Source: an uncultured Verrucomicrobiota bacterium
GTDB lineage: Bacteria; Verrucomicrobiota; Verrucomicrobiia; Limisphaerales; UBA9464
Reading direction: 5' to 3'
Assembly (NCBI GenBank): GCA_903916195.1
Contig: CAIWVP010000070.1
Coordinates: 1 to 43,580, forward strand
DNA: 43,580 bases
Part shown: positions 1 to 7,655 of the stretch, one piece after another
How positions within the stretch are numbered: the stretch's first letter is position 1
How the letters are laid out: each line of letters starts with the position of its first letter
Notes under the pieces: model-generated
The model's database searches: none
Told to the model about the DNA's origin: nothing
The model's input: the letters and a program-made list of their open reading frames with translations, nothing else
Translations under genes and position numbers: made by a program

Positions 1-644
1 ACCGCTACGCCCAACCGGTGGAGCTGCCGCGCGGCACCCGTTTGGTCATGCGCTTCACCTTTGACAACTCGACATCGAACCCGCGCAACCCCGACAAGCC
101 CCCCAAGCGCGTCCGCTACGGCATGCAGACCACCGACGAGATGGCCGAGCTCTGGCTGCAGCTCCTACCGAAGAACCCGGGCGACCTGGAGGCGCTCCGC
201 GAAGCCTACGCCCCGAAAGCACTGCGCGAGATCGTCACCTACCAAGAATACCGGTTGCGCCTCGACCCGGACGACGCCCACGCCCATGGACGCTTGGGAG
301 TGGCGAAGCTGCATCTCGGCGACTTCACCGCCGGGGCGGCGCAGCTCCGCACCGCGATCCGGCTGGATCCGGCGGACGATTATGCGCACTTCAACCTGGG
401 TATCGTGCATCAGGAGCAGAAGGACGCCGCCGCCGCCGAACGGGAATTCGCGGAAGCCGTCCGCTTGAATCCGAAGAACGCTCAGGCCCACGGAAGCCTG
501 GGCATCGCGCTCGGAGAGCGCGGCGACCTCGCCGGAGCCGAGCGCCATCTGCGCGAAGCGCTGCGCCTCGCGCCAGACGACAGCACCGCCCGGGAGGTGC
601 TCGACCAAGTGGTCAAGCTCCGGGCGGCGGCCAAGAAACCTTGA
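1..644 (+). CDS. Copper-monooxygenase-like tail fused to TPR repeats (partial, 5' end outside window)
   Basis: The reading frame is open from base 3 through the left edge, so only the C-terminal ~213 residues are present; a GTG at 18 is an internal codon and not a convincing start. The first ~50 residues (PRGTRLVMRFTFDNSTSNP, then NPDKPP...RYGMQTTDEMAELWLQ) resemble the end of the copper type II ascorbate-dependent monooxygenase-like domain found in large redoxin/cytochrome proteins of Planctomycetes and Verrucomicrobia. After a short linker come three to four tetratricopeptide repeats (DPDDAHAHGRLGVAKLHLGD, DPADDYAHFNLGIVHQEQKD, NPKNAQAHGSLGIALGERGD and a final degenerate unit), a protein-interaction module. 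The tail is Lys/Ala-rich. The domain link to monooxygenases is from memory of the family, the TPRs are directly visible. The catalytic part cannot be assessed. Confidence 0.8.
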   Translation, partial: RYAQPVELPRGTRLVMRFTFDNSTSNPRNPDKPPKRVRYGMQTTDEMAELWLQLLPKNPGDLEALREAYAPKALREIVTYQEYRLRLDPDDAHAHGRLGVAKLHLGDFTAGAAQLRTAIRLDPADDYAHFNLGIVHQEQKDAAAAEREFAEAVRLNPKNAQAHGSLGIALGERGDLAGAERHLREALRLAPDDSTAREVLDQVVKLRAAAKKP

Positions 645-654
645 GCCGGTCGGA

Positions 655-690
655 TGCGCTCCGGATGAGCGCAGGCCGTCACGGACGGCC
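655..690. terminator. Tandem hairpins between convergent genes
   Basis: Two adjacent perfect stems follow the TPR gene stop: TGCGCT/AGCGCA (655-660 and 668-673, 7-base loop), then GGCCGTC/GACGGCC (674-680 and 684-690, 3-base loop). The convergent PLDc_N gene ends at 714 on the other strand. There is no U-tract, so a bidirectional terminator is inferred from position and symmetry. Confidence 0.5.
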
Positions 691-713
691 CCATCGGCCT
701 TGCGGAGCGGGCA

Positions 714-947
714 TCAAGCGATCAATCGGCGCGGCGACGCCGTGCGGCCGGCGAAGAAGTAGATCACCGAGCCGATGAAGGGCAGGAACCAGATCAGCAA
801 CGCCCAGAGGACGCGGGTCGTGCCGTCCAGCCCGTCGTTCCGGATGGCATGGACGAGCATCCAGATCCAGAACACGAAGCACGCGATGCCCAACGGCACG
901 AGCAGGAGGAGCAGCAGCACACCGACGATGGAGAGGAGAGCGAGCAT
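714..947 (-). CDS. PLDc_N-type small membrane protein
   Basis: A 77-residue protein starting at the ATG whose codon ends at 947; the GTG at 974 would add nine unlikely residues. It has an N-terminal transmembrane helix (LLSIVGVLLLLLLVPLGIAC), then the FVFWIWMLVHAIRN segment and a second helix (VLWALLIWFLPFIGSVIYFF) ending in AGR. The pattern W-M-L-x-H/D-x-x-R-N ... R-V-L-W-A ... G-x-x-I-Y-F-F matches the PLDc_N family (phospholipase D nuclease N-terminal, the membrane part of cardiolipin synthases), which often occurs as a stand-alone two-helix protein of unknown role. It is the last gene of a four-gene minus-strand cluster and a paralogue of the gene just upstream (996-1238). No catalytic domain is attached. 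Confidence 0.8.
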   Translation of the reverse strand: MLALLSIVGVLLLLLLVPLGIACFVFWIWMLVHAIRNDGLDGTTRVLWALLIWFLPFIGSVIYFFAGRTASPRRLIA

Positions 948-995
948 GGTTGGCTTTTCTTTCGGGAAGAGCACCCAGCGGTGCGGAGAAATGTT

Positions 996-1238
996 TCAAC
1001 GGATCGCCGATGGGGTCGGAGGCCGTCCGGGCCGGCGTCCGGCGAAGAAATAGATCAACGCGCCCAAGAGGTGCGCGAGGCAGATGACGATGGCCCAGAT
1101 GAGGCGTTCGGTGTCGGTCAGCCTCGGGTTCCGGACACAGTCCAAGAGCATCCACACCCAGAAGGCGAAGCAAGCGACCGCGAGGGGGACGACGAGCCCG
1201 ATGACGATGAGTTCCGGGACACCGATGAAGGAGAGCAT
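996..1238 (-). CDS. PLDc_N-type small membrane protein, paralogue of neighbour
   Basis: An 80-residue two-helix protein. The start is placed at MLSFIGVPELIVIG (codon 1236-1238) because the longer frame upstream is Arg/Thr-rich and overlaps the DUF2500 gene. After helix 1 comes FAFWVWMLLDCVRNPRLTDT, then ERLIWAIVICLAHLLGALIYFFAGRR, the same W-M-L-x-D-x-x-R-N / I-Y-F-F-A-G-R pattern as the downstream copy, so the two are probably tandem duplicates that have diverged. It lies 31 bp after DUF2500 and 48 bp before the second copy, consistent with one transcript. Its role is unknown; association with phospholipid metabolism or envelope stress is only inferred from the family and the PspC neighbour. 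Confidence 0.78.
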   Translation of the reverse strand: MLSFIGVPELIVIGLVVPLAVACFAFWVWMLLDCVRNPRLTDTERLIWAIVICLAHLLGALIYFFAGRRPGRPPTPSAIR

Positions 1239-1269
1239 AGGTAGATGGGGAGTTTGCTTTCGGTGAAAG

Positions 1270-1773
1270 TCAATGGGTCGCGGGCTGCGTGCGTTCTGTC
1301 GCGCCGCAGGACGGGCATTTGCGTTCCGCGCCGTCGACGAACGTCGCGCAGTAACCGCAGGTCCAGGCCGGCGCGCAGGGGGCGGCGGCGATCGGAGGCG
1401 GTGCCGCGGGACGGCGAACGCGGACGAATCCCTTGTAACGGGTGCCTTGGTGGGTGAGGTCGCCGGTGTCGTCCTCGGCGACACCGCTGTAATCGGTGGC
1501 GGACACCCTGAACTCCTGACGCAGTCCGCCCGCCAGCGTCTCGAACGTGATGTGGTAGGAGGTGGAAGCGCCTGAATCCTGCCCGCCGCCGCTGACGTGG
1601 AGGCGTTTGGTCGCGATGCGCACCGGAAAGGTGAGCACCGGTTGCGCGTTGTTGTCGGTCCATTGGGCGATGCCCTTGACCGCGACGACCACGAAGATAC
1701 CGATCATCAGCACGAACACCGCGGCGATGAAGAGCGGGACCAGGACGAACATCAGCGTGAAGAGGGTGCCCAT
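1270..1773 (-). CDS. DUF2500-like membrane protein with C-terminal zinc ribbon
   Basis: 167 residues. A strongly hydrophobic N-terminus (LFTLMFVLVPLFIAAVFVLMIGIFVVVAV) forms one or two membrane segments, followed by KGIAQWTDNNAQPVLTFPVR, KRLHVSGGG, YHITFETLAGGLRQEFRVS and LTHQGTRYKGF. This ordered set is the DUF2500 family pattern (small beta-rich domain after a TM segment, function unknown). What differs from common family members is an added tail: a Pro/Ala linker and two CxxC pairs, CGYC and CPSC, 11 residues apart, a typical zinc ribbon. It lies 16 bp after the PspC gene and 31 bp before a PLDc_N gene on the same strand. The membrane anchor and metal-binding tail are visible; what it binds is unknown. 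Confidence 0.8.
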   Translation of the reverse strand: MGTLFTLMFVLVPLFIAAVFVLMIGIFVVVAVKGIAQWTDNNAQPVLTFPVRIATKRLHVSGGGQDSGASTSYHITFETLAGGLRQEFRVSATDYSGVAEDDTGDLTHQGTRYKGFVRVRRPAAPPPIAAAPCAPAWTCGYCATFVDGAERKCPSCGATERTQPATH

Positions 1774-1789
1774 ACGCCGGATGCGGCTC

Positions 1790-1990
1790 TCAGGAACGGT
1801 CCCCGGATCCTTCCACCGGCATCAGGAACCAGAGGGCGAGATAGACGATGATGCCGGGGAACGCCGCGCTGAGCACCGACACCAGCACATAGACGATACG
1901 CACGCGCGTCGCGGACCAGCCGATGCTCTCGGCGATGCCTCCGCAGACGCCGGCGATCATGGACTCACGGTTGGAACGATGGAGTTTCAT
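1790..1990 (-). CDS. PspC-domain small membrane protein
   Basis: 66 residues consisting of essentially one PspC domain: MKLHRSNRESMIAGVCGGIA, then ESIGWSATRVRIVYVLVSV, then a hydrophobic helix LSAAFPGIIVYLALWFLMP. The R-x-x-x-x-x-I-A-G-V-C-G-G-I-A-E core and the R-[IV]-x-[YF]-[VI] helix are diagnostic. PspC proteins sit in the inner membrane and, in enterobacteria, take part in the phage-shock response to membrane damage; stand-alone versions in other phyla are of uncertain function. It is the first gene of the minus-strand cluster, followed by DUF2500 and two PLDc_N genes. No PspA, PspB or PspF is visible in the window. Confidence 0.85.
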   Translation of the reverse strand: MKLHRSNRESMIAGVCGGIAESIGWSATRVRIVYVLVSVLSAAFPGIIVYLALWFLMPVEGSGDRS

Positions 1991-2114
1991 GAGTGGGTGT
2001 CGGGTAGGATATCGAGCTGTCTTCTAAGCGGCCCCGCTCGGGCTGGCCACGGAAAACGGGACGCCGCGGTCATCCCGCATAGGACCCGAGAAAACCGCAT
2101 CGCTGGCAGCGGAA

Positions 2115-2141
2115 GGTCGCCACGTTGAAAGAACGGCGACC
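2115..2141 (-). terminator. Hairpin after the DUF1552 gene
   Basis: The sequence folds as GGTCGC (2115-2120) with GCGACC (2136-2141), plus an inner CGTT/AACG pairing around a GAAAG loop with two bulged bases. It lies 30 bp past the DUF1552 stop on the minus strand and upstream of the PspC gene, so it may end the DUF1592/DUF1552 transcript. There is no clear U-run. Confidence 0.4.
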
Positions 2142-2171
2142 AGTGATCGTAAAGACCCCGACGCAGGCCCG

Positions 2172-3578
2172 TCAGCCCGCGAGACCGGCCAACTCTCCGG
2201 TGCTGTCGGCGAAGCGGTCGGTATTCACGCCCATCCGGTTAATCACCGAGACGTGGAGGTTGGCCATGGGATGATCCGTCCCATAGTCCAGATGCCGACC
2301 GGTCTGGAGAGTGCCGCCGCCGCGTCCGGCGAGCACGAGCGGAAGGTCGTGCGGGCTGTGCTTGTTGCCGTCGCTCATGCCTGCGCCGAACAAGATCATC
2401 GAGTTGTCCAGCACCGTGGCATCGCCCTCCTTGTAACCGCGCAGCTTCCCGAGCAGGTAGGCGTACTGGGCGACGTGCCATTGGTTGATCTTCTGGTACC
2501 GCGCCCGTTTGTCGGCCTTGCCCTCGTGGTGGCTGTTCTCGTGGTGGCTGCCGAGGCCGGCCTCCAAGAAAGAGAAGTTCCGGCCGCTCACCGAGTTGGC
2601 GAACATGAAGGTCGAGACCCGGGTGGAATCGGTCCAGAAGGCGAGGGCGATCAGGTCGAGCATCAAGCGCACCTGCTCGGTGTGGTTGTCGCGCCGCTCG
2701 CTCACCCGGCCCGGGTCGTCGTAGAGGTCGATGGCCTGGCCGAGCTTCTCGATCTCGGCGCGGACGAGCGGGTCCTCCATGTTCTCGGCGGACTTCCGCT
2801 TCCGGTCGAACTCGATGCGCTTCTCGATGGCGCGGACGCTGTCGAGGTACTCGCCGAGCTTCTGCCGGTCGGCGTGGCCCAGCCTGGCCTGGAGCCGCTT
2901 GGCATCGTCGGCCACGAGGTCGAGCACGCTCGGGTCGTTGCCGAGGCCGCCAGGACGCGTGCCGGCGGTGGAGCGGAAGAGCCGGTCGAAGGCCAACCGG
3001 GGATTGATCTCCTTCGCCAACGGCGTCGTGGGAGAACTCCACGCGATGTGGGATCCGTAGAGACGGGTGAAGCCGACGTTGGTGTCGACACCGGTCGTGA
3101 CCGGTTCGATGCCGAGCTCCAGCGACGGCAGCGGCGTGAGATGGCCGATGCGCTGCGCGATGAGCTGGTCCATCGACGTGTTGCCGGAGCACAGATTGCT
3201 GCCGGTCGTCCGCGTGATGGTCGTGCCCGTGAGCCAACCGCCGGTCTTCACATAATGCCCGTCACCGGTGTTCGTCGCGGCGTTCCAGAGGTTCGACAGC
3301 ACGAGCAGGTCGTCCTTGTGCCCGGCGAGCGGCGAGAGGGTCTTCGACAACGCGAAATCCCGACCGGTCCCTACCGGCTTCCATTCCGCCATGTTCGCCC
3401 CGTTGGCCATGTACAGAGCAGCGAACCGCACCGGTGTCTTGGCCGCGGGCGTTCCGCGGAACTTGGAGGTGACCTCTCCCCAAGCGTCCATCGGCCGCAT
3501 CGCGTCCAGCAACGGCAACGCCATGGTGACGCCCATGCCCTTGAGCAAGGTCCGGCGAGAGATGGGGCGGCTTGTCAT
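2172..3578 (-). CDS. DUF1552 secreted protein (Tat-exported)
   Basis: 468 residues from the ATG at 3578; the frame extends further upstream but only through a Pro/Arg-rich stretch overlapping the DUF1592 gene. The N-terminus MTSRPISRRTLLKGMGVTMA carries a twin-arginine signal (S-R-R-T-L-L-K). The body has the family pattern seen in DUF1552 proteins: YMANGANMAEWKP, LSPLAGHKDDLLVLSNLWN, LPSLELGIEP, an Asp/Lys/Arg-rich helical middle (ADRQKLGEYLDSVRAIEKRI) and the C-terminal NSMILFGAGMSDGNKHSPHD and GRHLDYGTDHPMANL. Its length is normal for the family. DUF1552 genes are usually next to a DUF1592 gene, as here (85 bp gap). Function is not established; it resembles DUF1501/sulfatase-like secreted proteins. 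It also has its own promoter candidate (3589-3616). Confidence 0.92.
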   Translation of the reverse strand: MTSRPISRRTLLKGMGVTMALPLLDAMRPMDAWGEVTSKFRGTPAAKTPVRFAALYMANGANMAEWKPVGTGRDFALSKTLSPLAGHKDDLLVLSNLWNAATNTGDGHYVKTGGWLTGTTITRTTGSNLCSGNTSMDQLIAQRIGHLTPLPSLELGIEPVTTGVDTNVGFTRLYGSHIAWSSPTTPLAKEINPRLAFDRLFRSTAGTRPGGLGNDPSVLDLVADDAKRLQARLGHADRQKLGEYLDSVRAIEKRIEFDRKRKSAENMEDPLVRAEIEKLGQAIDLYDDPGRVSERRDNHTEQVRLMLDLIALAFWTDSTRVSTFMFANSVSGRNFSFLEAGLGSHHENSHHEGKADKRARYQKINQWHVAQYAYLLGKLRGYKEGDATVLDNSMILFGAGMSDGNKHSPHDLPLVLAGRGGGTLQTGRHLDYGTDHPMANLHVSVINRMGVNTDRFADSTGELAGLAG

Positions 3579-3588
3579 CGTGATAGGG

Positions 3589-3616
3589 GTTATAACCTCG
3601 ACGGCCGATCCTGCAA
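3589..3616 (-). promoter_or_regulatory. Promoter candidate for DUF1552 gene
   Basis: On the minus strand TTGCAG (3611-3616) is followed by 16 bp and TATAAC (3589-3594), which ends 10 bases before the ATG. The -10 box lies in the palindrome GGTTATAACC (3588-3597). It implies transcription separate from the DUF1592 gene and a very short leader. Confidence 0.5.
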
Positions 3617-3663
3617 GAGACCTGCCGCGGATCGCTGTGGATTTCGGTCCGGATGGATCGGGT

Positions 3664-5535
3664 TCATGGCGTCGCGGCCACATCCTTCGGCGGGTTCTCG
3701 CCCCGGCGCCATTGGAAGGGATAGCTCTGCACCACCTCGAGCACCAACGCGGCGGTGCGATGGTCCTGCGCCGCGCTCTGCTCGACGATCCGGCGCACCG
3801 CCGGGATGTCGTGGTGCTCGAGCCCTCGGCCCAGCGCGTAGGCGAGCATCTTCTCGGTGAGGTGCCGGAGGAACAACGCCCGCCGCGCCAGCAAAGCGTT
3901 CTTCAACGCCACCGGCCCTTCCACTTTCTCGCCGTTCACCAGCACCCCGCTGGCATCCACCGGCGCGCCGCCGGATTCGGTGCGCCAACCACCGATGGCG
4001 TCGAAGTTCTCCAGCGCAAAACCCAGCGGATCCATGCGCGAATGGCATCCCGCGCAGTTCGGGTCCTTGCGGTGTTCTTCCAGGCGTTGCCGGAAGGTCA
4101 GGCCGTCCTTCGTCTTGTCGTCGGGCGACAAGGTCTTCACCAGCGGCGGCGGCGGCGGCGGCGGGGTGCCTAGGACCTCCTCCAGGATCCACTTCCCGCG
4201 CAGCACCGGACTCGTGCGGAGCGGATAGCTCGTCTGGGTCAGCACCGCCGCCATGCCGAGGATGCCGCCGCGTCGCCGGTCCGGCAGCGGTACGCGGACG
4301 AGGTTCGTCGACGTGACGTTGGTGATGCCGTAGAGCGCAGCCAGTTCAGCGTTCGCGTAGGTGAAGTCCGCGTCGAGCAGCTTCAGCAGGCTCGCGTCGT
4401 CCCGCAGCAACGCGCCGAAGAACTCGACCGGCTCGGCCATCATCGCGTCGCGCAGGGTGTCGGTGTAACGCGGGAACTTCGACCGGTCGGGGCTCGACGT
4501 GATGGACAGCGTCTTCGTGCCCAGCCATTGGGCGGTGAACTGCCCGGCCAGAGCGGACGCCTTCGGGTCGCGCAACATCCGACGCACCTGCGCCTCCAAA
4601 ACGCCCGGATCGGACAGCGTGCCGGCCGTCGCGAGCACAAGGAGTTCTTCGTCCGGCATGGACGACCAAATGAAATAGCTCAGGCGCGATGCGAGCTCGT
4701 GGTCGCTGATCCGCCACGGCTTCCCGCCGGGCTGCTCGCGCTCGACGCGGAACAGGAAATTCGGGGAGACCAGCACCGCCTTGTAGGCGGAACGCAGGGC
4801 GAGCGCGAACGGCATCCCGCCTTTCCTCGCCGCGTCGTACAAGCCGAGCAGGCGCCCGACTTCGCCGGCTTCGAGCGGACGCCGGTAAGCACGCGCCGCG
4901 AACCACGCGAGGTTCTCCCCGGCCACCGCCCGGTCGCGCCGATGCCACACGGGCCGTGCTATGGAGAGACGCTCGGGCTTGGCCTCCGCGAGCACCGATT
5001 CAGCGGCCTGCAGGTAGCGCTCCAACAGGATCGGCGGCACGAAGAGCGTGTCGGCGTTGTTGTCGAAGCCGCCGCCGCCGCCGCCGTCCGCAGGGAACCG
5101 GTCCGCCGGTCGGCTGTCCACGCCGAGCAGGTCACGGATCGTGAAGTTGTATTCGGTCCGGTTGAGGCGGCGCGCGACCGTCGCACCCGGGTCGCGCGGC
5201 ACGGATGCGGGGTCCGGGTCGTCGAGCAGATGCCGCAACGATTCGACCAGGCGCAGCCGCTCCTCAGGCGTCGGCTGCGGTTTGTCGTCCGGAGGCATCT
5301 GCCGTTCCTCGATCTGGCGGGCGACCGATTCCCAGAGCTTCGGATCGCGATAGAGCGACGGGGCGTTGGTGAAGGGGGCGAGATCCACGCCGCTCTTCGT
5401 TCGTTTGCCGCCGTGGCAATCGAGACAGAGCGCGTCGAGCTTCGGCTTCACGTCCCGGAGAAATGCGTCATCCGCCCGGACCGCAGAGGATGCGGCGAGC
5501 AGCACGGCGAGGATGATGGCGCGGACGGAAAGCAT
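3664..5535 (-). CDS. DUF1592/DUF1588/DUF1585 cytochrome-like secreted protein
   Basis: 623 residues from the ATG at 5535, which begins a clear signal peptide (MLSVRAIILAVLLAASSAVRA); upstream in-frame sequence is Arg/Gly-rich and was excluded. Domains in order: PSCyt1-like heme site CLDCH (residues 37-41); DUF1587 (NRTEYNFTIRDLLGVDSRPA ... FDNNADTLFVPPILLERYLQ); a short DUF1595-type RRPLEAGEVGRL segment; DUF1592 (LVSPNFLFRVE ... LASRLSYFIWSSMPDEELL); DUF1588 (RRGGILGMAAVLTQTSYPLR, poly-proline run, second heme motif CAGCH at 494-498, then DPLGFALENFDAIGGWR); and DUF1585 (LTEKMLAYALGRGLE). Two CxxCH motifs suggest periplasmic c-type heme binding. The form is short, with no carbohydrate-binding insert. 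It pairs with the DUF1552 gene downstream. Substrate unknown. Confidence 0.92.
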   Translation of the reverse strand: MLSVRAIILAVLLAASSAVRADDAFLRDVKPKLDALCLDCHGGKRTKSGVDLAPFTNAPSLYRDPKLWESVARQIEERQMPPDDKPQPTPEERLRLVESLRHLLDDPDPASVPRDPGATVARRLNRTEYNFTIRDLLGVDSRPADRFPADGGGGGGFDNNADTLFVPPILLERYLQAAESVLAEAKPERLSIARPVWHRRDRAVAGENLAWFAARAYRRPLEAGEVGRLLGLYDAARKGGMPFALALRSAYKAVLVSPNFLFRVEREQPGGKPWRISDHELASRLSYFIWSSMPDEELLVLATAGTLSDPGVLEAQVRRMLRDPKASALAGQFTAQWLGTKTLSITSSPDRSKFPRYTDTLRDAMMAEPVEFFGALLRDDASLLKLLDADFTYANAELAALYGITNVTSTNLVRVPLPDRRRGGILGMAAVLTQTSYPLRTSPVLRGKWILEEVLGTPPPPPPPLVKTLSPDDKTKDGLTFRQRLEEHRKDPNCAGCHSRMDPLGFALENFDAIGGWRTESGGAPVDASGVLVNGEKVEGPVALKNALLARRALFLRHLTEKMLAYALGRGLEHHDIPAVRRIVEQSAAQDHRTAALVLEVVQSYPFQWRRGENPPKDVAATP

Positions 5536-5564
5536 GACGGAGCCGCCCAGCGGACCCGGAGGAG

Positions 5565-5592
5565 ACCCTATACCGAGGATCCGCCGCGGCAA
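5565..5592 (-). promoter_or_regulatory. Promoter candidate for DUF1592 gene
   Basis: Minus-strand TTGCCG (5587-5592), 16-bp spacer, TAGGGT (5565-5570). The -10 ends 29 bases before the ATG at 5535. It matches the motif found upstream of several other genes here. Confidence 0.45.
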
Positions 5593-5798
5593 CAGCGGCG
5601 ACCTGTCGCCCTGTCGACGTCCTCGGAAAGCCCATCGACGACACCCCGTGCCGACCGGGATGTCCGAGCCACGCACCCCTTCCCCGGTCCGACCGGACTT
5701 CGCGACGGATCCGTCCTGCGCCCGGGGGAGAGACCGACAGCACTGTGCGACCGTTGCCCGCCGTCGCGGCGCATCGACGGCGACCGACCTGACCGTCA

Positions 5799-5826
5799 TT
5801 GCGCAGACCGAGCGCCTGTGTAGCCT
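5799..5826 (+). promoter_or_regulatory. Promoter candidate for coiled-coil/HhH gene
   Basis: TTGCGC (5799-5804), 16-bp spacer, TAGCCT (5821-5826). The two hexamers and the spacing are identical to those in front of mutS (35547-35574). The start codon is at 5859, giving a leader of about 25 bases. Confidence 0.55.
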
Positions 5827-5858
5827 GCCGTGCAGCGGCGCCGCCGTCCGCTCCTTCC

Positions 5859-7655
5859 ATGAACACCCTCGTCGCCCAGCATCCGCTGCTCTGCCTTCTC
5901 GCGACGTTCCTGCTCGGCTTCACCGTCAAGTTCCTGCTCGACATCTACCTGCTGCGCGAACGGTTGTCCGACGCGGAGTCCGCGGTCCGCCGCCGCGGCG
6001 AGGAGCTCGATTCCGAGCGCTACGTCCATGGCCGCACGCAGGTCGATCTGAAGAACCGTTCCGCGGAGCTCGCCGCCGCGCAGAAGTCCGGCGCGTTGCT
6101 CGCTGCCCAGGCGGCCGCGCTCAAGGACCGGCTTGCCGACACGGAGACCGAGCTGACCAAGGTCGGTGAAGCCCGGACAGCGCTCGGGCGCGAGCTCGGA
6201 TCCACCGCCGCGCAATTATCGGTCGCGGTGGCCGACGCGCGCGGCCAAGCTTCCGAGATCACCGATCTCCGCGTGCGTGCCGATGTCCGCGACGCCGAGT
6301 TGGCGACCTCGGGTTCCGCGATCGAGTCGCTCCGCGGCAACCTCGCCCGCGCCGTCGCCGAGGTCGGGGCGCTCGCGGAACGCATCCCTCGGCTCGAGCA
6401 CGACCTCGGCGCCCAGACCACGAAGGCCGATGCGCTCGGCTCCGACCTGCAGCAGACGTTGCGCAGTCTGGCCGACGCCCAGGCTTCCGGCGGCGAAGCA
6501 CTCGGGGCCTTGTCCGCCGCGCAGTCGATGCTCACCGCGGTCCGCGCGGAGAAGGCCGAGGCCGAGGCGGCCATGGCGAAGGGCGCGGCCACCGCCGCCC
6601 AAGAGACCGGGCGCTGGACCGCGGCGCTGGCGAAGGCGGAGAAGGAGAACGCCGCGTTGCGGGCCCAGGCCGAGAAGCTGGAGACCGCGCTGAAGGACGC
6701 CCGGGCCGACGTCGACCCGATCGAGCAGAAGCTCAAGGCCCGACAGGACGAGGTGAAGCAGCTGTCCGAGCTGCTGGGCGAGGCGAACGAGGAGTTGGTC
6801 GCCCTCCGGACCCAGCACGCCCAGGTCCAGGCCAACCACAAGGCCACGCTCCAGACGCGCGCGACCTTGGAGGCCGAGGTCCAGATCCGCGAAGGGCAGG
6901 TCGCCACGATGCGCGAGAAGCTCGACGAGGTCGAAGCCGAGCTGCGCGCGACCTCCGAGGCGCACGGACGCCTCCAGGTCGAGCTCGCAGAACGGCCCTC
7001 CCTTGTCGTCGTCCCGACGTCGGCACCGGTCAATCCGCCCCCACCGGCGGCCGACGCCGGCCTGCTCGCCGAACTGGAGCTGATGACGCGCGAACGCAAC
7101 GAGATGGCTGCCGAGCTGGCGAGCCTCCGGTCAACACCACCTCCGGCCGCCAAACGCGCGAAGCGGCCGGCTGCCGGGCCGGAGCCCGAGCCGGAAGAAT
7201 TCTTCGCCGCCTGCCCGCAGCATCTCTCCGACGTGGAGGGCATCGGACCGACCTACGAGCAGAAGCTCCACGCCGTCGGCGTCGGCAGCTACTGGGAGCT
7301 CTCGCAGCTCAGCGACGCGGACATCGCCGAAGCGCTGGATCTCACCGCGACCGAGCGTTCGGTCGCGGACCTCGACGGCATCCGCCTCGACGCCGCCCGG
7401 CGCGCCCGCGAGACGGGATCGGTCGGACGTCGATGGAACGGGTCGGAACCGGATGGCTTGGCGCAGCTCGAAGGCATCGGCCCTGCGGCCGAGAAGAAGC
7501 TCCACGACGCGGGCATCTGCACCTTCGAGACGCTCGCAAGGACTTCCGCGGAGCGCCTGGCCGAGGTCTGGCCGGGCACACCGCAACGGCCAGCCGACCA
7601 CGCAGCGTGGATCACCCAAGCCGCCGTCCGCGCCGCCGCCCGTGAGAACCCATGA
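5859..7655 (+). CDS. Membrane-anchored coiled-coil protein with two C-terminal helix-hairpin-helix modules
   Basis: 598 residues from the ATG at 5859, chosen because it directly precedes the hydrophobic segment LLCLLATFLLGFTVKFLLDIYLL (residues ~9-31), a single N-terminal TM anchor. Residues ~35-390 are an almost uninterrupted Ala/Glu/Arg-rich heptad region (a long parallel coiled coil is likely). A Pro-rich linker and a basic stretch (KRAKRPAAGPEPEPEEF) lead to two HhH-type repeats: LSDVEGIGPTYEQKLHAVGV ... YWELSQLSDADIAEAL and LAQLEGIGPAAEKKLHDAGI ... FETLARTSAERLAEV. The GIGP-x-x-E-x-K-L core is that of non-specific DNA-binding HhH/DUF4332-type domains, often attached to membrane coiled coils. 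A DNA-tethering or chromosome-organising role is inference. No nuclease active site was seen. Confidence 0.85.
   Translation: MNTLVAQHPLLCLLATFLLGFTVKFLLDIYLLRERLSDAESAVRRRGEELDSERYVHGRTQVDLKNRSAELAAAQKSGALLAAQAAALKDRLADTETELTKVGEARTALGRELGSTAAQLSVAVADARGQASEITDLRVRADVRDAELATSGSAIESLRGNLARAVAEVGALAERIPRLEHDLGAQTTKADALGSDLQQTLRSLADAQASGGEALGALSAAQSMLTAVRAEKAEAEAAMAKGAATAAQETGRWTAALAKAEKENAALRAQAEKLETALKDARADVDPIEQKLKARQDEVKQLSELLGEANEELVALRTQHAQVQANHKATLQTRATLEAEVQIREGQVATMREKLDEVEAELRATSEAHGRLQVELAERPSLVVVPTSAPVNPPPPAADAGLLAELELMTRERNEMAAELASLRSTPPPAAKRAKRPAAGPEPEPEEFFAACPQHLSDVEGIGPTYEQKLHAVGVGSYWELSQLSDADIAEALDLTATERSVADLDGIRLDAARRARETGSVGRRWNGSEPDGLAQLEGIGPAAEKKLHDAGICTFETLARTSAERLAEVWPGTPQRPADHAAWITQAAVRAAARENP

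Follow-up and report, generated by a model that had tools for sequence, protein, structure and literature searches.

A stretch of 43,580 nucleotides from an uncultured Verrucomicrobiota bacterium (GenBank contig CAIWVP010000070.1; this whole stretch is called the window) carries near one end four small genes, for a PspC-domain protein, a DUF2500 protein and two PLDc_N proteins, and raises the question of what such a set could be for. The original prediction held that these are four small membrane-protein genes running in one direction with short gaps. All four open reading frames and their coordinates were confirmed at 714-1990 on the minus strand, each frame is open, the intergenic gaps are 16, 31 and 48 bases in the order PspC, DUF2500, PLDc_N, PLDc_N, and the Pfam matches of the products exceed their cut-offs. 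Hydropathy analysis gave two hydrophobic stretches in each PLDc_N protein and one each in the DUF2500 and PspC proteins. At E <= 0.001 no further PLDc_N, PspC or DUF2500 copies were found in the window's genome. The features of the locus, with coordinates in the window, are as follows.

18-644, plus strand: downstream convergent flank, TPR gene, conserved in sister locus L018
714-947, minus strand: stand-alone PLDc_N protein 2, 77 aa (Pfam PF13396, 44.1 bits, cut-off 23.3)
996-1238, minus strand: stand-alone PLDc_N protein 1, 80 aa (Pfam PF13396, 38.8 bits, cut-off 23.3)
1270-1773, minus strand: DUF2500 protein, 167 aa (Pfam PF10694, 87.2 bits, cut-off 33.5)
1306-1359, minus strand: CxxC...CxxC tail of the DUF2500 protein, residues 139-156, with invariant cysteines
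1790-1990, minus strand: PspC-domain protein, 66 aa (Pfam PF04024, 76.8 bits, cut-off 25)
2070-2153, minus strand: 3' end of a DUF6487 zinc-ribbon gene, a 27-codon remnant (deletion scar) recognized by comparison with L018
2148-2158, no strand: deletion junction, from the blastn break between L018 positions 723 and 3264
2172-3683, minus strand: upstream flank, HXXSHH (DUF1552) gene (Pfam), conserved in sister locus L018

By Pfam, the upstream flank forms part of an HXXSHH (DUF1552) and PSCyt1/PSD2-5 gene pair at 2172-5799 on the minus strand. Such pairs are typical of planctomycetes and Verrucomicrobiota.

Comparison with a close sister genome (G581, locus L018) indicated where the four genes came from. 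The gene order in L018 is HXXSHH, NfeD-like, flotillin, DUF6487 zinc ribbon, PspC, DUF2500, PLDc_N, PLDc_N and a convergent TPR gene. The genes that stand there between the HXXSHH and PspC genes are the following.

L018 828-1538: NfeD-like gene (Pfam 24.3 bits, under the cut-off of 29.1)
L018 1558-3108: flotillin gene (Band_7 107.9 bits and Flot 30.6 bits)
L018 3109-3342: intact DUF6487 zinc-ribbon gene

The window is collinear with L018 save for one break. Blastn pairs it with L018 1-723 (95.3%) and with L018 3264-5405 (91.5%); the single break between 723 and 3264 means that about 2.5 kb is missing from the window. The absent segment, L018 724 to about 3260, holds nfeD, the flotillin gene and most of the DUF6487 gene. 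The flanking proteins of the two genomes are about 96% identical and the PspC orthologs 95% identical. What is left of the DUF6487 gene keeps an open frame, with 22 of its 27 residues the same as in the L018 gene and 20 of 22 over the last 22. The window locus therefore has the same-strand tail of small membrane-protein genes found in an NfeD-flotillin operon, and the flotillin gene and NfeD-like gene are absent. It is a derivative of such an operon and not a complete member. We consider it probable, with room for doubt, that the four genes once formed the end of an nfeD-flotillin operon whose leading genes have been lost and that their products are accessory subunits of a flotillin assembly.

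Among the genomes examined, the exact order PspC-DUF2500-PLDc_N-PLDc_N occurred only in the window and G581. The expectation that this order would recur beyond close relatives thus failed in the gene-neighborhood survey; what does recur beyond them is its parts, attached to the nfeD-flotillin operon, PLDc_N above all. A module of the envelope membrane was a reasonable guess, but its unit is not the four genes. In the genus, DUF2500 was found in seven of eight genomes, the exception being 54% complete. Flotillin was found in four of the eight (G392, G449, G522 and G581), in every case upstream of this tail; it was not found in G554 (95% complete), G580 (86%) or G582 (54%). Loci L015, L016, L017 and L019 have a DUF2500-zinc ribbon gene with two or three PLDc_N genes, and at L020 DUF2500 and a PLDc_N fragment lie close to the end of a contig, with a second PLDc_N fragment starting contig C53 of the same genome. 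Across L015-L019, PLDc_N protein 2 has best matches of 75-96% identity that span 59-77 residues. In G554 and G580, a DUF1501 gene and a DUF6487-like gene (in G554 under the Pfam cut-off, at 19.7 of 24 bits) precede DUF2500 and two PLDc_N genes, and the SufE and TatD genes that follow are the same as those after the tail in the flotillin-bearing loci L015 and L016. In a PLDc_N tree the window grouped with L018 (support 100/98, taking the first PLDc_N), and G554 grouped with G580 (100/96); the DUF2500 tree also paired the window with L018 (88/92), most of its other forks being unsettled. On this reading of draft genomes, flotillin appears to have disappeared on two or more occasions while the tail was retained. 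Since the window, G554 and G580 keep the tail with no flotillin, the tail is not strictly dependent on flotillin.

PspC is the least constant member of the set. It was found in three of the eight genus genomes, in G392 on another contig, and was not found in the other five, of which four keep DUF2500 and PLDc_N and the fifth is the 54%-complete genome. The window's PspC falls under both of NCBIfam's PspC equivalog cut-offs (52 of 104 and 32.1 of 136). Among 27 PspC places outside the genus, three follow flotillin (G561, G562 and G573). These observations bear on a different explanation, namely that the four genes form a self-standing PSP-like envelope-stress module in which PspC is the sensor of membrane stress and the other three proteins work alongside it. 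PspC does adjoin a stand-alone PLDc_N gene in four genomes outside the genus (G573, G542, G534 and G467), three of which have no flotillin match in the 12-kb region, and in other bacteria PspA systems have ties to band-7 proteins: the accessible text of a PSP survey (PMC11237479) associates PspA with band-7/flotillin operons, which in some Proteobacteria also include a PLD-superfamily hydrolase, and that of a second paper (PMC9239133) places band 7/FloT and NfeD with PspA in Acidobacteriota. The B. subtilis pspA-ydjGHI operon and PspA/band-7 operons resemble the present loci in encoding membrane and zinc-ribbon proteins with an SPFH protein and in their tie to envelope stress (PMC8581546 and PMC11237479, from the parts available), but they have other zinc-ribbon and membrane proteins, and PspC is present here in some loci only. 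With PspC missing from most of the genus and the four-gene order confined to two close genomes, we regard a self-standing stress module as unlikely. The PLDc_N-PspC pairs with no flotillin match within 12 kb are at L227, L228 and L229. In a separate case, a flotillin-linked PspC (L147:1245-1529) showed weak, sub-cut-off similarity to PLDc_N (E 0.0064), hinting in sequence at interchangeable membrane parts.

The DUF2500 protein is the most unusual component. The family is rare: a phylum-wide draw of 387 genomes gave matches in two (one of these below the cut-off), and the 195 genomes of the order gave matches in six. G066 matches only weakly, at 23.5 bits against a cut-off of 33.5, and its region L022 gave no match with our own profiles. 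DUF2500 stands beside flotillin only in the genus (G392, G449, G522 and G581) and in one other family, where G438 (L021) has the order NfeD-flotillin-PLDc_N-small ORF-DUF2500 with a CxxC tail. Our own DUF2500 profile gave no match in the other 86 flotillin regions. The metal-binding tail noticed at the outset held up: C139, C142, C153 and C156 are invariant across seven aligned DUF2500 proteins. A scan of a genome-contig collection returned 205 DUF2500 relatives, of which the best 80 were analyzed. Two CxxC motifs were present in 11 of these 80, all titled as Verrucomicrobiota (Verrucomicrobia, Verrucomicrobiales, Verrucomicrobium or Akkermansia); the remaining 69, mostly from Bacillota, lacked them. 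The genus genomes and G438 account for seven of the 11; further ones are L031, L036, L037 and L038, in which our own profiles found neither flotillin nor PLDc_N, the L036 and L037 contigs being about 4 kb long. At 69 of the 80 loci, mostly in Bacillota, DUF2500 had no flotillin, NfeD or PLDc_N neighbor by our own profiles, which were built from Verrucomicrobiota and may miss distant members.

Several observations on DUF2500 stand apart from the window. Additional DUF2500-like paralogs or fragments lie in the same operon in two congeners (L015:4342-4563 and 5485-5994; L016:4234-4644 and 6230-6463), one fragment matching the N-terminal 48 residues only. The frame of the DUF2500-zinc ribbon gene at L031:5845-6525 starts, by eye, with a stretch resembling the degraded terminal part of a DUF6487 gene; this may be a further decayed operon. 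DUF2500 matches also occurred in five plasmid records and one phage record, and a viral, phage or plasmid source of the cassette was considered and rejected: three annotated plasmid neighborhoods contained no PLDc_N or PspC, our own profiles found DUF2500 alone in four of the five plasmid neighborhoods (one of the four unannotated), and viral contigs gave no relative.

In a structural model of the DUF2500 protein, built from the seven-sequence alignment (mean pLDDT 79.5, pTM 0.50), a single long N-terminal helix is followed by five strands, of which strands 3 and 4 are separated by a short helix; the prediction of the tail is loose. About residues 45-120 form an OB-like barrel, and the C-terminal tail is zinc-ribbon-like. 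The model matched solved DUF2500 structures best (3rd4, Z 12.8 via VIA; 3q6c_B, Z 12.7, rmsd 1.0 over 67). The next matches were LEF-3 (Z 9.8), PriB (8.0) and EF-P (7.9), all of which we take to be OB-fold proteins. OB-fold matches had Z of about 7-10, where values under 8 may mean merely a common arrangement, and no NfeD structure was among the 50 fold matches listed. The protein thus models as an OB fold behind one helix, the fold class of the flotillin-binding domain of NfeD. Compared with the DUF2500 family (YhhM; PDB 3q6c, 3rd4 and 2l0c), the window protein has a Pfam match well above the cut-off and the same fold, and it differs in its C-terminal CxxC...CxxC tail. The family is named in three papers of the literature searched; a functional lead comes from one of them, an E. 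coli c-di-GMP screen that, in its available text, lists the yhhM promoter.

Selection on the four genes bears on whether they are now non-functional debris, a tail decaying since flotillin was lost and co-located to no purpose. In pairwise comparison with L018 by our own Nei-Gojobori script, dN/dS was 0.61 for DUF2500, as against 0.14 for PspC, 0.26 and 0.13 for the two PLDc_N genes, and 0.17 and 0.11 for the flanks. DUF2500 residue 101 is aspartate in the window and glycine in the sister and the six out-group rows, and a scan of window positions 600-2300 found no sigma-70-like promoter and two terminator-like sites (shuffled sequences gave a mean of 0.9, sd 1.0). The raised dN/dS, the aspartate and the failure to find a promoter fit decay. 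However, the four frames remain open, PspC and PLDc_N protein 2 have low dN/dS, the 20 DUF2500 differences between window and sister fall five to the window branch, three to the sister branch and 12 to neither with confidence of placement, and G554 and G580 keep the tail as well. DUF2500 may be relaxing after flotillin loss, five changes against three being no clear excess; decay of the entire tail we consider improbable, about as much so as the stress module.

It is less probable still that the missing genes are an artifact of assembly or binning and that the real organism has the whole operon. The window's genome is a draft in 211 contigs, yet the contig is continuous over the junction with both flanks intact. 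The missing 2.5 kb was not found elsewhere in this 96%-complete assembly, save for one 44-base match at 82%, and no Flot domain was found in the genome. The G554 and G580 assemblies, at the completeness given above, likewise lack a detectable flotillin.

The link between PLDc_N and flotillin across the order is the more general result. A flotillin survey of 195 genomes of the order gave 90 places in 89 genomes, 87 of them outside the genus (86 regions and G438). PLDc_N counts were drawn from the best 150 PLDc_N places, more of which exist, and a PLDc_N in a frame of fewer than 300 codons was classed as stand-alone, giving 74 outside the genus, or 75 with one place classed by hand. A listed stand-alone PLDc_N lay within 3.5 kb and on the same strand at 33 of the 87 flotillin places, in genomes that span 17 other families of the order; the remaining 54 had no listed PLDc_N nearby. 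Counted from the other side, 41 of the 75 listed stand-alone PLDc_N genes were near flotillin, or 40 of 74 if the hand-classed place is set aside; 36 of them (35) were less than 2.5 kb downstream of it. When only flotillin-bearing genomes were considered, the proportion was 41 of 54 (40 of 53), where random placement in 5-Mb genomes would give about 0.04. As a control, none of the 65 listed long-frame PLDc_N genes was near flotillin, or one of 66 if the hand-classed frame is put there. There were 34 of the 75 that were not near a listed flotillin, and at two of these (L233 and L238) the end of the contig carries a flotillin fragment. Two or more PLDc_N genes occurred at seven loci outside the genus (L161, L177, L193, L195, L213, L215 and L217), and PLDc_N stood upstream of NfeD at four (L156, L174, L176 and L223). 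Clustering by blastp, which is less sensitive for PLDc_N than the profile search, placed a PLDc_N gene in 18 of 80 flotillin loci, its start a median of 25 bases after the flotillin stop.

The same clustering showed that the largest gene cluster downstream of flotillin is carbonic-anhydrase-like (45 of 80 loci, for example L215:4558-5385, minus strand; Pfam Pro_CA, 40.8 bits in the one member tested). A gene of this kind was also seen by eye at L021:2942-3847.

The original prediction related the PLDc_N proteins to phospholipid enzymes and took them to be duplicated. The first idea is unsupported, since proteins of 77 and 80 aa have no catalytic PLD domain by Pfam, whereas cardiolipin synthases and phospholipase D have catalytic PLD domains after the PLDc_N helices. 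A part in phospholipid (cardiolipin) synthesis is therefore very improbable, even though PLDc_N is known from cardiolipin synthases (PMC3581485, accessible text) and occurs in the order in open frames of about 500 codons, for these long frames do not lie beside flotillin and short PLDc_N-SHOCT proteins were judged unlikely to be catalytic in the same SHOCT survey, as far as its text is available. The window's proteins are like such short proteins, with or without SHOCT, in having a two-helix PLDc_N and no catalytic domain, and they differ in their link to flotillin and in having no SHOCT domain by Pfam. As to duplication, there are indeed two copies, but they fall in two separate groups common to the genus in a tree with few columns; a recent duplication was thus not supported, and the two look like an old pair.

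Among known systems, the closest comparison is the NfeD2-SPFH2 (YuaF-FloT type) operon. The window's relatives share with it an NfeD-like gene followed on the same strand by a flotillin with Band_7 and Flot domains, and they differ from it in having, in addition, a tail of genes for PLDc_N, DUF2500-zinc ribbon, DUF6487 and PspC; the window itself differs further in having neither nfeD nor flotillin. A survey of SPFH proteins (PMC2636767) describes NfeD-SPFH pairs, and its Figure 7 legend says that additional genes were omitted; the available main text does not mention phospholipase or Verrucomicrob. The accessible main text of the PSP survey cited above likewise does not mention PLDc, DUF2500 or Verrucomicrob. 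A search of literature titles on the function of stand-alone PLDc_N or DUF2500 found none. In searches whose reach excluded most subscription papers, flotillin was joined with PLDc or DUF2500 only in the SHOCT survey, whose available text concerns domain fusions, and no paper joining flotillin, Verrucomicrobia and NfeD was found; flotillin and PspC occurred together in 28 papers.

The best reading of the locus, then, is that it encodes flotillin-accessory membrane proteins that outlived their scaffold. In L018 and, with variations, elsewhere in the genus and the order, genes for small membrane proteins (PLDc_N, DUF2500-zinc ribbon, DUF6487 and, in some cases, PspC) lie next to those for NfeD and flotillin, and their products would be accessory subunits of the flotillin membrane assembly. 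PLDc_N, with two helices and no catalytic role, would be a membrane adaptor of the microdomain. According to the available text of a study in S. aureus, NfeD binds flotillin through its OB domain, which also supports the client-holding assembly of flotillin (PMC11222466); by analogy with this domain, and from the predicted OB fold of DUF2500, we infer that DUF2500 could be a second membrane-anchored OB-fold partner beside NfeD, its zinc ribbon offering a further contact. Gene context and fold class are what suggest these contacts and roles for DUF2500 and PLDc_N. PspC would be an occasional link to envelope-stress sensing. In the window's genome, with NfeD, flotillin and most of DUF6487 gone, the remaining proteins may at present act without flotillin, act with another SPFH protein, or be slowly losing function.

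Neither stand-alone PLDc_N nor DUF2500 has a clear function as a family, and the flotillin-NfeD link in 17 further families of the order gives PLDc_N a testable one; genomes with and without flotillin provide a natural comparison. A wider proposal, which we advance tentatively and with less confidence than the origin of the four genes, is that the flotillin assemblies of Verrucomicrobiota have unrecognized, interchangeable small subunits (PLDc_N, DUF2500-zinc ribbon, DUF6487 and PspC) that are able to outlive the scaffold and to work scaffold-free or re-scaffolded. Flotillin has been tied to protein stabilization and drug resistance in S. aureus (PMC11222466, from the text available), so new accessory proteins would be of general interest, and these little-studied small membrane proteins are likely helpers of bacterial flotillins.
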